Shown: in pieces, positions 7,417 to 32,186 of the stretch
Layout of the letters: every line of letters starts with the position of its first letter
How positions within the stretch are numbered: the first letter of the stretch is position 1
Source of the DNA: Candidatus Campbelliibacteriota bacterium
GTDB lineage: Bacteria; Patescibacteriota; Minisyncoccia; Phycocordibacterales; UBA1006
NCBI GenBank assembly: GCA_947311725.1
Contig: CAMZLR010000040.1
Location: 1 to 33,399, forward strand
Direction of reading: 5' to 3'
DNA: 33,399 nt
The notes under the pieces: model-generated
What the model was told of the DNA's origin: nothing
Seen by the model: only the letters and a program-made list of their open reading frames with translations
Database searches by the model: none
Position numbers and translations under genes: made by a program

Positions 7417-9267
7417 ATGAACAATACATCACAAGAAAATGATAAAAAGGTATTAAATAATAGTGCTAATAAAAAGACATTCCAAAGCCGTTATAATAAT
7501 CAATCACATAGAAAATATAAAAAACAAGGTAAAACAAAAAACAATACAAAAACAGTCAAACATGGGGTTCCACCATTAAATGATAATGATATAAGAGTTA
7601 TTCCATTAGGTGGTGTTGAACAAGTTGGTCAAAATATGAATATCATCGAAACAAAAGATGATATATTTATAGTCGATATTGGAATTGAATTTTCAAACAC
7701 AGAAGAAACACCTGGGGTTGACTATATAATTCCTAATATTAAATATTTATTAGATAAAAAAGAAAAAATCCGTGGTGTATTTATTACTCATGGTCACCTT
7801 GATCACATAGGAGCATTTCCATATATAATAGATCAACTTGGATATCCTCCTGTATATTGTGGATTATTAACAAAATGGATGATAGATAAAAGAAATTCAG
7901 AGTTTCCTCATCTAGAAAAATTAACATACAATGTAGTCGAACCAGGGCAACGTGTAACTGTTGGTCCGAATGAAATGAAAGTGCAGGTATTTCATGTAAC
8001 ACACTCTATTCCAGATGCACTTGGTTACTCCTTTGAAACAAAAGAAGGTAATATTATTTTTGCTGGAGATACTAAATTAGAACATATAGGAGGAGCACCA
8101 ATACAACTTGAATACGATTCATATGGAAAATTAGAACACGGAGATCAAAAAAATCTATTATTCCTTTCTGATTCCACAAATTCAGAGCAACCTGGTTGGT
8201 CAAAAAATGAGGGTGCCATAATAGAAAATATTATTGAATTAATAGCTGAAGCAAAAAATAGGGTATTTCTTGGAACTTTTGCTTCTCAAATTGTACGAAT
8301 AACAGCAATAATGGATGGAGCACATAAATATGGAAAAAAAATAGTTCTTGAGGGTAGATCAATGAAAACAAATGTAGATATTTGTATTAAATCTGGTAGA
8401 TGGACTCCACCAAAAGGTTTAATTATTACAGCAGATGAGGCAAAAAATATTGCTCCCGATAAATTAGTATATCTTTTAACTGGATCACAAGGTGAGGAGT
8501 TCGCTGCGCTAATGAGAATTTCAATGAAAAGACATCCAAAAATCAGATTTACAAGTCGTGATACAGTAATATTATCTTCTTCTGTAATTCCAGGAAACAA
8601 CAAAGCTGTTAGAAAATTAAAAGATAATCTTTCACGCCATGACCTACGGATAGTGCAATATAGAACAAGCGATATACATGCATCTGGTCATGGTAATCAA
8701 GATGAATTACTTTGGATTCAAAAAACAATTAACCCAAAGTTCTTTGCTCCTATACATGGACACCACTCAATGTTACGTGCACATGCACAAGCTGTTATTG
8801 AAAGAAATAATTATCCTAAAGAAAATATAATAGTTGTTCCAGAAAATGGTTCTGTAATAGATGTAAATAGAAATTCATTTAAAGTACATAAAGCCAAGGC
8901 ACCTAATAATATGACTGTTGTAGAAGGTTTCAGGGTTGGAGATATACAAGATGTTGTAATTAAAGACAGGAAAACGTTAACTAATGAAGGTATTTTTGTA
9001 GTAATCGCTACAATAGATATAAAAAATGGTAGACTAAGAAAATCTCCAGATATAATTTCTAGAGGTTTTGTATATTTACGTGATTCTCAAAAACTTATAA
9101 ATGAAACACGTAATCTAGTTAAAAAAACAATAGTAAAACATGCAAGTCATCAAAAGCCTATCAACTTTGATGTAATAAAAAAACATGTTACTGATGATGT
9201 AGCAAGGTTCCTTGTCCAAAACACAGGTAAAAGACCTATTGTTATACCAGTTATTTTAGGTATATAA
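7417..9267 (+). CDS. rnj: Ribonuclease J
   Basis: A metallo-beta-lactamase/beta-CASP nuclease that performs 5'-3' exonucleolytic and endonucleolytic RNA decay and processing in the cytoplasm. Its N-terminal ~55 residues are a basic, Asn/Lys/Gln-rich extension, common in RNase J homologues. The beta-lactamase core starts at IRVIPLGGVEQVGQN, with the Zn-binding HGHLDH motif at about residue 126, VTHSIPDALG, and FAGDTKLE. The beta-CASP portion includes FLGTFASQIVR and LLTGSQGEE, and the late HGHHSMLRAHAQ motif is present near 448. The C-terminal domain (about 500-616) is complete. At 616 residues it is of typical length. It has its own terminator and is not in an operon. Confidence 0.95.
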   Translation: MNNTSQENDKKVLNNSANKKTFQSRYNNQSHRKYKKQGKTKNNTKTVKHGVPPLNDNDIRVIPLGGVEQVGQNMNIIETKDDIFIVDIGIEFSNTEETPGVDYIIPNIKYLLDKKEKIRGVFITHGHLDHIGAFPYIIDQLGYPPVYCGLLTKWMIDKRNSEFPHLEKLTYNVVEPGQRVTVGPNEMKVQVFHVTHSIPDALGYSFETKEGNIIFAGDTKLEHIGGAPIQLEYDSYGKLEHGDQKNLLFLSDSTNSEQPGWSKNEGAIIENIIELIAEAKNRVFLGTFASQIVRITAIMDGAHKYGKKIVLEGRSMKTNVDICIKSGRWTPPKGLIITADEAKNIAPDKLVYLLTGSQGEEFAALMRISMKRHPKIRFTSRDTVILSSSVIPGNNKAVRKLKDNLSRHDLRIVQYRTSDIHASGHGNQDELLWIQKTINPKFFAPIHGHHSMLRAHAQAVIERNNYPKENIIVVPENGSVIDVNRNSFKVHKAKAPNNMTVVEGFRVGDIQDVVIKDRKTLTNEGIFVVIATIDIKNGRLRKSPDIISRGFVYLRDSQKLINETRNLVKKTIVKHASHQKPINFDVIKKHVTDDVARFLVQNTGKRPIVIPVILGI

Positions 9268-9291: not shown

Positions 9292-9306
9292 TATACCTAA
9301 AATTTA

Positions 9307-9431
9307 TTAAAAATGTAGCGGAGCGGAATTTTTAACAACGTTAGGGATATACGAAGTTTTTCTGGAACGTAGTGGAAGAAAAATTTGGAGAAATGGCAAA
9401 GCTGAGCCATTTCTTGTATACCCCTTGTTAT
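9307..9431. repeat. Hairpin-rich repeat A of the cassette island
   Basis: Several nested hairpins. TTAAAAAT/ATTTTTAA encloses the 13-base loop GTAGCGGAGCGGA (9315-9327). An outer imperfect stem pairs ACAACGTTAGGGATATACGAAG (9335-9356, the first part) with CTTGTATACCCCTTGTTAT (9413-9431). Inside it are TTTTTCT/AGAAAAA around loop GGAACGTAGTGGA, and AGAAATGGC/GCCATTTCT. The result is a branched, cloverleaf-like fold. Further related sequence (GAACGCAGTGGA) continues to about 9490. G+C content is clearly above the surroundings. Confidence 0.75.
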
Positions 9432-9521
9432 ATAACCCGAACAGAACGCAGTGGAGTGAGAGCGTAGCGTGGCTTGAGTTGATTTTGAGCATATCAATTG
9501 TAAAAAAATAATTTCCCGTTT

Positions 9522-9908
9522 TTACTTCACAATTTTTGGAATTTTATCACGAGGCACTTTTCTAACTTCCACTTTAGTTTTACCAAGAATTTTGGCTTTG
9601 ACGAGTCTGTGTAAACCATCAAGAATTAACCAACGACCTTTATTCTTCATAATATCAATAGGATATGATAAATCAGCTTTCATAGTTCTGTTATATTCTT
9701 CTTGGTGGTTTTCGGAAAAATTGATTACATCATTTGGCTTTAAATCGTAATATCCTTTTTTTGTACTCCAAAAAGGAATTTCAAAATGCCACTCTAATTC
9801 TTTGATATCAATTTTTTCGACAGGCACATCTAAATCCCAGACTTTCTTTTCAGACCAACTAAAGTCAAAGCCAACTTCTTCAATTATTTTTGGTAAAACT
9901 TTCTTCAT
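9522..9908 (-). CDS. ParB/Srx-fold domain protein
   Basis: A 128-residue single-domain protein. The motif WLILDGLHRLVKAKILGKTKVEVRKV (residues about 92-117) matches the DGxHR core of the ParB/sulfiredoxin nuclease-like fold, and the preceding D-x-K-x-N-D stretch fits this group. No helix-turn-helix or centromere-binding domain is present, so it is not a chromosomal ParB. It lies alone inside the repeat island, flanked by repeats A and B. The flanks themselves are complementary (TTTGAGCA at 9484 and TGCTCAAA at 9975). Base composition and context suggest transfer. A nuclease, CTPase or DNA-modification role is possible; none is demonstrated. Confidence 0.7.
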   Translation of the reverse strand: MKKVLPKIIEEVGFDFSWSEKKVWDLDVPVEKIDIKELEWHFEIPFWSTKKGYYDLKPNDVINFSENHQEEYNRTMKADLSYPIDIMKNKGRWLILDGLHRLVKAKILGKTKVEVRKVPRDKIPKIVK

Positions 9909-9995
9909 AGTTTTTTAGAAAAGTGCTAAATTTATATATCTTACGGAGGGAAATTATTTTTTTATCCTTATTTTTGCTCAAACTCAATTTCATAT

Positions 9996-10146
9996 AATGT
10001 CCCGCGAATATGCGACGTTTCCGTAGCGATAGCGGAGGAAATGTGGGCGGATTAGCCGTATATGCGTTGTTGTAAGAAGTTCCGTGTATATTTCTTACTT
10101 AGCTTTAGTATATCATATTATTCGCCCACGTATATTCGCGGACATT
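9996..10146. repeat. Hairpin-rich repeat B of the cassette island
   Basis: The outer stem pairs the AATGTCCCGCGAATATGCG arm (9996-10014) with 10129-10146 (CGTATATTCGCGGACATT) with one bulge and one mismatch. Next inward, GTGGGCG (10043-10049) pairs with CGCCCAC (10123-10129). Sub-hairpins: TTTCC/GGAAA around the loop GTAGCGATAGCGGA (10023-10036), and GTAAGAA/TTCTTAC (10072-10078, 10092-10098). It looks like a copy in which further sequence was inserted or nested. The span 9909-10341 contains repeats B and C and no gene. Confidence 0.75.
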
Positions 10147-10263
10147 GTTAAAAATGTAGCGGAGCGGAATTTTTAACAACGTTCCAGTATATGCGATGTT
10201 TACACGAAATGAAGTGGAGTGTAAATTTGGGTGAAAGTCTGCAAGACTTGAACCTCATATACT
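10146..10263. repeat. Hairpin-rich repeat C of the cassette island
   Basis: TGTTAAAAAT/ATTTTTAACA (10-bp stem) around the same 13-base loop GTAGCGGAGCGGA (10156-10168). The following branched fold has outer stem AGTATATG (10186-10193) / CATATACT (10256-10263), hairpin TTTACAC/GTGTAAA around loop GAAATGAAGTGGA, and AAGTCT/AGACTT. The order and shape of elements match repeat A, although stem sequences differ and are compensated on the other arm. Both A and C are followed on the right by CTTGAGTTG. Confidence 0.75.
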
Positions 10264-10341
10264 ATGTTATGTGAGGGTGAGCAAGGTACGAGCGAAAGTG
10301 CAACGTCCCCTTGAGTTGGAAACCTTTTTTATGTTAATTGT

Positions 10342-10740
10342 TTAGAAATTTAGGTTTCCTTTTAATGAGATTGGCTTGAGCCCCTCTATTTCAACTGAAT
10401 TGGGTTGATTTGGTATATTATTCAAAATAAAAATCTTCTTTTTAAGGATATATGCGAAAGCCATTTCCAAAAAAGTATTTGCTCCGATATAATTCTCGAC
10501 ACCATTTTTAGAATAATTAGCAATCAAAATTGCATCCGATTCTCTAATTTTTTCAATGTGCTTATCAATAAAGTCTTGTTTCATATCCGCCTGTTCTTGC
10601 TTGCTTAACTTTGAATAATCAGTACCAGTTCCTTCTTTACTAGGAGTAAATACTTTGAAACCTAAATTTTCTAATTCCTTTTTCAACTGCTCAATGTCTG
10701 AAAAAAAATTCATTGAACCACAGATTGTTATTGTTTTCAT
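10342..10740 (-). CDS. Nucleoside 2-deoxyribosyltransferase-like protein
   Basis: The 132-residue protein starts TITICGSMNFFSDIEQL, the Rossmann-like opening of the nucleoside 2-deoxyribosyltransferase/DUF4406-type superfamily. Later come a DAILIANYSKNG segment and IGANTFLEMAFAYILKKKIFIL, where the Glu of the xGxxTxxEMxxA motif would be the nucleophile in true transferases. The fold suggests binding or cleavage of nucleosides or nucleotides; substrate is unknown. It is the second single gene in the repeat island, between repeats C and D, with its own complementary flanks (TTGGAAAC at 10316, GTTTCCAA at 10771). Such proteins are common in mobile and defence-rich regions, but that is context only. 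Confidence 0.72.
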   Translation of the reverse strand: MKTITICGSMNFFSDIEQLKKELENLGFKVFTPSKEGTGTDYSKLSKQEQADMKQDFIDKHIEKIRESDAILIANYSKNGVENYIGANTFLEMAFAYILKKKIFILNNIPNQPNSVEIEGLKPISLKGNLNF

Positions 10741-10784
10741 AATGCTGTTAATTTAAATGTCTTAAAAAATGTTTCCAATTTCAC

Positions 10785-10875
10785 ATAACGTGCCGCGGAG
10801 CGGAATGTAGTATGACAGCGGATGTATCCGCGGCACGTTATTCGGGAGTGTAGCGGAGCGGAATTCCAGAATAAC
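10785..10875. repeat. Hairpin-rich repeat D of the cassette island
   Basis: A perfect 15-bp inverted repeat, ATAACGTGCCGCGGA (10785-10799) and TCCGCGGCACGTTAT (10827-10841), then a second stem GTTATTC (10837-10843) / GAATAAC (10869-10875) whose loop again holds GTAGCGGAGCGGA (10850-10862). GCGGAGCGGA also occurs in the first loop. The two stems share bases 10837-10841 and are therefore mutually exclusive. Repeat D marks the right end of the island; the rest of 10741-11070 holds only the tiny ORF at 10951. Confidence 0.72.
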
Positions 10876-10950
10876 TGGTTATTATACAAACTAATCGACT
10901 AATTAGATGTATAATTTGTATCTTATCCAAACTTTTGATATAATTAAGTT

Positions 10951-11070: not shown

Positions 11071-12180
11071 TTATATTAAAAACTCAACAACATCTCCATC
11101 TTTTACAATATACTCTTTTCCTTCTATACGAAGAATTCCACTTGCACGAGCCTCAGTAAAAGACCCAACGCTGATTAACTTATCCCATTCAATTACATTT
11201 GCACGTATAAAATTTTTCTCGAAATCTGTATGTATAGCTGAGCCCGCTTGTGGTGCTGTTGCTCCTTCTTTTATTGTCCAAGCTCTTGTCTCTTTTATCC
11301 CAGTTGTAAAAAATGTAATAAGCCCAAGAAGTTTATACGATTTTTGTATAAGTTCATCTATACCATCCTTATGTCCAATATCATTTGATATAATTTTTTT
11401 TTCATCTTCTTCAAATTCAGATAGATCATATTCTGTCTTTGCATCTAAAATCACAAACTGAGATCCAGAATTAACTATTTCGTCAACAACACTATTAAAA
11501 ATATTTTTATCATTTTCATCTAAATTATTACCTCCTGTTTTCTTATTTAATCCATAAATAACAGGCTTCATTGTAAGAAGTTGTAACTGTTTAACAACTT
11601 TCATCTCATCATCATTAAAGCTAATAGTATTAACAAATTTCTCATCTTCTAACACAGAAATAATCTTTTTATAAATATTATCTTCAAAAATAGCCAATTT
11701 ATCACCCCTTTTGACATCACGAGATATTCTTGAGACTCTATTTTGTATAAGTTCAAGATCAGATAAAATAAGTTCCATATTAATTATCTTAATATCACGT
11801 AACGGATCTATACTCCCATATACATGTATTTGTTCTGTAGATGTATCATCTTCAATAGAAAATATTCTCACAATATGTAAAATTGCATCGACTTCTCTAA
11901 TATTTGAAAGAAACTTGTTTCCGAGGCCTTCACCTTTTGAAGCACCTTCAACAAGACCAGCAATATCAACAAATTCTATAACAGCTGGAATAATCTTCTC
12001 TGTATTTGAAAAGTTAGATAACTTATATAAACGATCATCCGGAACAGCAACAACACCAACGGAAGGATCAATAGTGCAAAATGGATAATTCTCACAAGGA
12101 ACTGACTTTTTTGTAAGTGCACTAAACAATGTTGATTTTCCAACATTAGGTAACCCTACTATGCCAATAGATAACGACAT
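11071..12180 (-). CDS. ychF: Ribosome-associated GTPase/ATPase YchF
   Basis: An Obg-family P-loop protein (369 residues, normal length) that binds ribosomes and prefers ATP. G1 is GLPNVGKST (residues 8-16), G3 DIAGLVEGASKGEGLGNKFL, and the G4 region is YGLNKKTGG in place of NKxD, consistent with relaxed nucleotide specificity in YchF. The TGS domain is at the C-terminus (ITFFTTGIKETRAWTIKEGATAPQAGSAIH, about 280-369). It follows the 12187-12435 gene with only six bases between, so the two are one transcription unit. Confidence 0.95.
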   Translation of the reverse strand: MSLSIGIVGLPNVGKSTLFSALTKKSVPCENYPFCTIDPSVGVVAVPDDRLYKLSNFSNTEKIIPAVIEFVDIAGLVEGASKGEGLGNKFLSNIREVDAILHIVRIFSIEDDTSTEQIHVYGSIDPLRDIKIINMELILSDLELIQNRVSRISRDVKRGDKLAIFEDNIYKKIISVLEDEKFVNTISFNDDEMKVVKQLQLLTMKPVIYGLNKKTGGNNLDENDKNIFNSVVDEIVNSGSQFVILDAKTEYDLSEFEEDEKKIISNDIGHKDGIDELIQKSYKLLGLITFFTTGIKETRAWTIKEGATAPQAGSAIHTDFEKNFIRANVIEWDKLISVGSFTEARASGILRIEGKEYIVKDGDVVEFLI

Positions 12181-32120: not shown

Positions 32121-32186
32121 GGGCCCGTAGCTCATCTGGCTAGAGCGCCTCACTTGCACTGAGGAGGTGGCAGGTTCGAGTCCTGT
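32121..32186 (+). pseudogene. tRNA-Ala(TGC)-like gene with broken acceptor stem
   Basis: Complete D arm, anticodon arm (CCTCA-CTTGCAC-TGAGG, anticodon TGC), variable loop and T arm, identical to the intact tRNA-Ala at 32904-32977. The 5' acceptor half is GGGCCCG, but the sequence after the T arm is AAGATCA (32187-32193), which gives only three pairs of seven. No CCA follows. It should not be aminoacylated. A promoter and a terminator flank it exactly, so it is probably transcribed, perhaps as a tRNA-like RNA or a dead copy. Confidence 0.75.

Follow-up and report, generated by a model that had tools for sequence, protein, structure and literature searches.

The window analysed here is the whole stretch of 33,399 nucleotides. 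The island occupies positions 9308-10874 and is flanked by rnj (7417-9267) and, on the minus strand, ychF (11071-12180). It is confirmed as an insertion in which folded repeats and single genes are arrayed. An earlier note had described four repeats alternating with two single-gene units. The four repeats and the two units are present, but the order is A-gene-B-C-gene-D, with B adjoining C. The raised G+C content described there holds for the island as a whole (0.34 versus 0.27 in the window), but the excess is confined to the sites (0.43); the genes are at 0.31.

Read on the minus strand, on which all of its features lie, the island consists of four cassettes followed by a 31-nt tail; the cassettes meet at G|TT, or at A|TT in the case of the degraded site B. 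Cassette 0 (10789-10874) is gene-less. From the sequence, its crossover at G|TT is placed between 10875 and 10874; it starts with TTATTC, which is matched by GAATAAC over 6 nt of own-end complementarity, and it carries the attC-like site D (10782-10846). Site D had been taken for a branched repeat, but it folds as a simple 15-bp palindrome without spacers (arms 10785-10799 and 10827-10841); it is the weakest member and was missed by R1, the covariance model described below. Cassette 1 (10180-10788) is composed of TTATGTGA, a nucleoside deoxyribosyltransferase-like gene, TCACATAAC, and site C. The gene (10342-10740) encodes 132 aa resembling nucleoside 2-deoxyribosyltransferase, with a match to PF05014 (2.4e-6) just under the cut-off. 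Site C (10170-10275) folds as a three-way junction and scores 94 bits with R1 (E 6e-18), being one of the training sequences of that model. Cassette 2 (9998-10179), again gene-less, contains a TTGTTAAAAAT-loop-ATTTTTAACAA hairpin and site B (9988-10155), whose box is degraded to AAT/ATT; this site is not a training sequence and scores 30.8 bits (E 0.001). Cassette 3 (9339-9997) runs from TTATAT through a 128-aa gene (9522-9908) to ATATAAC and site A. The C-terminal part of the encoded protein matches phrog_17560 and, weakly, SbnI. Site A (9329-9438) is a three-way junction with a fold z of -4.3 and, as a training sequence, 85 bits with R1 (E 7e-16). The array ends with the tail TTGTTAAAAATTCCGCTCCGCTACATTTTTA (9308-9338), a truncated cassette start that is common to contig C42 of the same genome and whose first ~24 nt are also found in contig C27.

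In an array from Wolfebacteria (L169:1711-2815), one and the same gene-less cassette, comparable to cassette 2, recurs several times among the gene cassettes. At the other end of the island, an AT-rich palindrome (10875-10915) ending in TATAATAAC(C/T)(A/G)G precedes the first TT of the array, and a palindrome of the same kind is seen at L052 near 11640. These palindromes may represent insertion sites of a second kind.

The GTAGCGGAGCGGA loop is present in three exact copies, at 9315, 10156, and 10850, and the remaining loops reported earlier were also recovered in place. The stems form repeat and inverted-repeat pairs as described, and the folding of three island regions is far beyond that of shuffled sequences (z of -8.8, -4.3, and -4.1). 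Rfam 15 gave only tRNA matches above the gathering score in the window and in five array loci, and no known structured RNA family. One region of the window (32128-32186) shows a partial Rfam tRNA match (39 bits, model positions 8-63) that is not called by ARAGORN; it is perhaps a decayed tRNA. The AG(C/T)GGA loop motif is kept inside this genome, but most sites elsewhere have different loops; what is conserved between genomes is the junction linkers and the L stem. Because the loop varies across genomes, the motif was rejected as the recognised element. Repeats that contain words resembling AG(C/T)GGA (of the GCGAGCGGAGTGGAATGAAGTGAAGCAAT type) are dispersed on contigs C8 (L009) and C24 (L010) and are not cassette sites.

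Each cassette begins with a TTRRRY-like sequence that complements the letters preceding AAC in the site of the same cassette. This own-end complementarity averages 8.3 nt versus 3.1 nt for other pairs across 10 cassettes drawn from 4 genomes, and none of 100,000 permutations matched it. Judged from sequence, it is the signature predicted for a circle cut at G|TT, the integron cassette rule. Five different upstream sites or sequences are followed, in every case exactly at G|TT, by the same cassette start, TTGTTAAAAATTCCGCTCCGCTA. The junctions and the end complementarity lend support to a presumed exchange at G|TT in which the substrate is a folded single strand. Because most cassettes have only 6-8 nt in common, a k-mer test that looked around 60 recombinases for long, perfect repeats of cassette ends was not informative.

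The island is not fixed within the genus. Six congeners have rnj and ychF on a single fragment, and neither the island nor its sites lie between the two genes in any of them. The stop codons of rnj and ychF are 42 bp apart in G006, and the gap in other congeners is occupied by a Sua5/YrdC gene or other unrelated genes. Four more such loci, on contigs C42, C27, C12, and C41, are present in the same 618-kb MAG. C42 carries an APH-family kinase gene with the canonical ends GTTAGGC...GCCTAAC. On C12, a decayed recombinase gene of which about the first 16 codons are left lies next to an attI-like site. This site also adjoins a copy of cassette 2 (91% identical), and the contig has a GmrSD gene as well. 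On C41, a full recombinase gene is divergent from an attI-like site and a cassette. C41 also carries smpB, ftsH, dnaK, and dnaJ-type genes, named from their translations, and in the congener G002 (L132:1-150, G002:C5) a recombinase remnant, its first 43 codons with stops, lies beside smpB-ftsH. The housekeeping genes and this remnant make contamination an unlikely source of C41. The remnant occupies the same place as the intact gene of C41, which looks like platform decay in the congener. The end of C27 (L064) and C12 (L023) share a 66-bp end at a LOG-family gene and then continue into different cassette arrays; either an assembly branch or strain differences at a single locus may account for this.

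An exact search for the H motif found it only in this genome and in none of 60 relatives. Such a search hid how widespread the system is, and a structure model was needed. The model R1 was built from ten sites and covers only the R and L stems; the inner hairpins were left out because MAFFT misaligns both of them. The site is a three-way junction of about 90-200 nt with covarying stems, conserved linkers, and two inner hairpins. The AAC/GTT boxes, whose canonical form the earlier note had described as unmatched, are present in nearly every strong site and pair in 34 or 35 of the 35 aligned sites. These 35 sites have R boxes, L boxes, and central spacers that are left unpaired; pairing over the two stems is 93% (99% of cells in R, 91% in L) versus 28-42% with slid partners. 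Two-sided changes number 84 versus 24 in shuffles. Alignment was guided by the R and L stems, so these percentages lean toward the modelled stems. The covariation of the linkers CCCAWAT and ACWTC lies outside the model: their W letters are A-T in 19 sites and T-A in 10, with 3 exceptions (p 1e-5), two of which look like regex mismatches. The L stem has no inserted base in 32 of the 35 sites, in an alignment that leans toward the modelled stem, and its median uninterrupted run is 11 pairs. The spacers are asymmetric, 2-3 nt on one side and 4-6 nt on the other.

Searching with R1 showed head-to-tail arrays in which single, variable genes lie between the sites. In the phylum, sites were found in 43 of 287 sampled genomes, about 15% by R1. 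Neighbouring sites of this phylum set are on the same strand in 52 of 53 cases, with a median gap of 869 bp. R1 had no match in 32 non-CPR control genomes, including the sources of I2-bearing IntI loci, and did match Aminicenantes, Micrarchaeota, and one Spirochaetaceae genome.

A specific recombinase co-occurs with the sites. Among 397 genomes of the order, sites are present in 21, the recombinase in 8, and both in 7; thus sites occur in 7 of 8 recombinase genomes versus 14 of 389 others (p 3e-9). Recombinase matches in G022 and G031, which are in other contexts and outside the CPR-type set, were set aside; their inclusion gives 7 of 10. At the thresholds used, 14 of the 21 site-bearing genomes have no detected recombinase, and some of these absences are attributable to broken contigs and to MAGs that are incomplete. 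In genome_contigs, 26 R1 matches at E<1e-3 fall in 15 of the 80 named recombinase loci, and 24 of the 26 matches lie upstream of the recombinase on the opposite strand. An apparent intI-type arrangement, with the gene opposite to the cassettes and next to an attI-like site, is seen in C41, G361, G282, G102, and L174, and, besides C41, complete units are present in G361, G282, G102, and L174 of Peregrinibacteria. Clear examples are Wolfebacteria GW2011_GWB1_47_1 (CP011209.1, a complete genome) and Peregrinibacteria JAHFJU010000010.1. In the CPR-type set of 28 loci, a contig edge lies within 1.7 kb upstream in 15 and downstream in 2; upstream breaks are as expected from repeated arrays.

The recombinase is an R-K-H-R-H-Y tyrosine recombinase with invariant R134, K159, H223, R226, H249, and Y258. 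Its best PDB match by sequence is Vibrio IntI4 (2a3v), which is also the best fold match when a Wolfebacteria relative is modelled with AlphaFold (pLDDT 85.9). The I2 domain is absent; the 64-residue stretch of IntI4 that holds I2 corresponds to 21 residues here. The GxR..HxLRH spacing is 91 aa in nearly all array-bearing CPR proteins versus 133 in I2-bearing IntI, in a count that left out the recoded Gracilibacteria proteins and L199. TIGR02249 gave 210 bits, under its cut-off of 265, and the best-scoring model is NCBIfam NF040815. The protein belongs to the XerA/IntI branch. In the tree, CPR proteins form one clade (99/99) and I2-bearing IntI another (100/100), and the node uniting the I2-less groups is weak (85/29). 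The recombinase of C41 lies outside the main CPR subclade, in a Kapabacteria/Ignavibacteria subclade, where it groups with a Kapabacteria protein whose own locus combines attI with a cassette and a differently shaped folded site. A search of viral contigs for close proteins found nothing.

The likeness to integrons, including archaeal ones (PMC9668308), covers the divergent tyrosine recombinase, the attI-like site, single-gene cassettes in one orientation, AAC/GTT boxes, the G|TT junction, orphan arrays, and R and L stems with unpaired spacers. There are also differences. I2 reads the extrahelical bases of attC (PMC4792948), two or three of which set strand choice in canonical sites (PMC2727003), and archaeal IntI have the additional domain (PMC9668308), whereas the recombinase here has no I2 and the L stems mostly have no extrahelical bases. 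The sites here also end in a three-way junction that is conserved and has the linkers CCCAWAT and ACWTC, and cassette-end complementarity often extends past the core box. XerA/Xer proteins share the catalytic fold, the size, the lack of I2, and NF040815 as the top model, but the proteins here differ in an IntI-like SP(L/F) C-terminus, linkage to cassette arrays, and folded sites instead of dif. In the integration of CTX phage by XerCD, an I2-less recombinase likewise acts on a folded phage strand that is single and has no extrahelical bases (PMC4792948), but there is no cassette array and no dedicated recombinase.

It is very likely that the island is an integrase-less (CALIN-type) array of an integron-like system, in which the recombinase of C41 moves cassettes at G|TT without I2 and strand choice comes from other cues. 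We regard the system as a variant integron in CPR and infer the recombination itself. The suggestion in the earlier note of a different folded-site cassette system is thus largely right, given the I2-less recombinase, the sites without extrahelical bases, the arrays, and the co-occurrence. The two checks suggested in that note, a covariance model and a look for a shared recombinase, both gave positive results. Cassettes would hold one gene or none, each ending in a folded recombination site, and the tyrosine recombinase encoded on C41 would cut at G|TT to insert and excise them. A single strand of the site would be extruded as the three-way junction, with its R and L stems resembling the double-stranded form of a core site. 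The recombinase would then exchange one strand with attI or another site, and replication would resolve the product, by analogy with integrons. As the recombinase lacks I2 and the L stems lack regular extrahelical bases, strand choice must rest on something else, plausibly the asymmetric spacers together with the two linkers. Counting against this explanation are the degraded or simple form of sites B and D, the location of the recombinase away from the array in the window, its Kapabacteria/Ignavibacteria affinity, and the many site genomes without a recombinase.

The same array could also be read as ordinary CALIN cassettes moved by the canonical, I2-bearing IntI of another host and passively carried. 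The array logic is integron logic, the ends of C42 are canonical, and orphan arrays are common (PMC9024848). We consider this improbable, as the adjacent and co-occurring recombinases have no I2, the extrahelical base is absent from most L stems, and no R1 site was found in the genomes of seven probable I2-bearing IntI loci (L195, L199, L200, L201, L203, L204, and L209, with the spacing of L199 outside the measured set). It is highly improbable that the sites are dispersed hairpin repeats, such as terminators or MITE-/REP-like elements, that merely flank genes: the precise G|TT junctions, own-end complementarity, same-strand arrays, and linkage to a recombinase speak against it, although a related AG(C/T)GGA motif is found in the unrelated repeats of C8 and C24. 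There is equally little to recommend pdif-like modules, in which genes between chromosomal dif-like sites are moved by XerC/XerD. The recombinase is Xer-like in lacking I2, and XerC/D-like proteins are also encoded in this genome. However, dif-like sites are 28 bp, far from the folded units here, a dedicated recombinase adjoins attI and arrays, and relatives with only XerC/D-like recombinases mostly have no sites.

In integron theory, I2 and the extrahelical bases of attC co-evolved, making folded-strand recombination possible. Escudero et al. described their joint origin as a chicken-and-egg paradox that functional intermediates would resolve (PMC4792948). In the system favoured here, a widespread one, both are missing together. 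It is conceivable, though we lean slightly against it, that an I2-less, bulge-less integron lineage extends across CPR and reaches some DPANN archaea, Aminicenantes, and Spirochaetes, either as an intermediate before the gain of I2 or as an independent solution in which the three-way junction replaces the code of I2 and extrahelical bases. The routes by which CPR bacteria acquire genes are poorly known, and a variant integron would give them a gene-capture device in the proportion of sampled phylum genomes given above, with a large unread cassette pool that would include defence genes (GmrSD). Searches of the IntegronFinder type, which require an I2-type IntI profile, would probably class these recombinases as non-integron. 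No report of integrons in Patescibacteria/CPR was found in the open-access literature; subscription papers and preprints were outside the search, so priority is uncertain.

In G361, the relative from the same order with a complete unit, GdhA- and RpiB-like genes at about 3830-5665 of L128 (G361:C166) have an in-frame TGA where relatives have Trp (MS*MRDEYE and LK*LSTDF), which suggests that UGA may be read as Trp in this genome.
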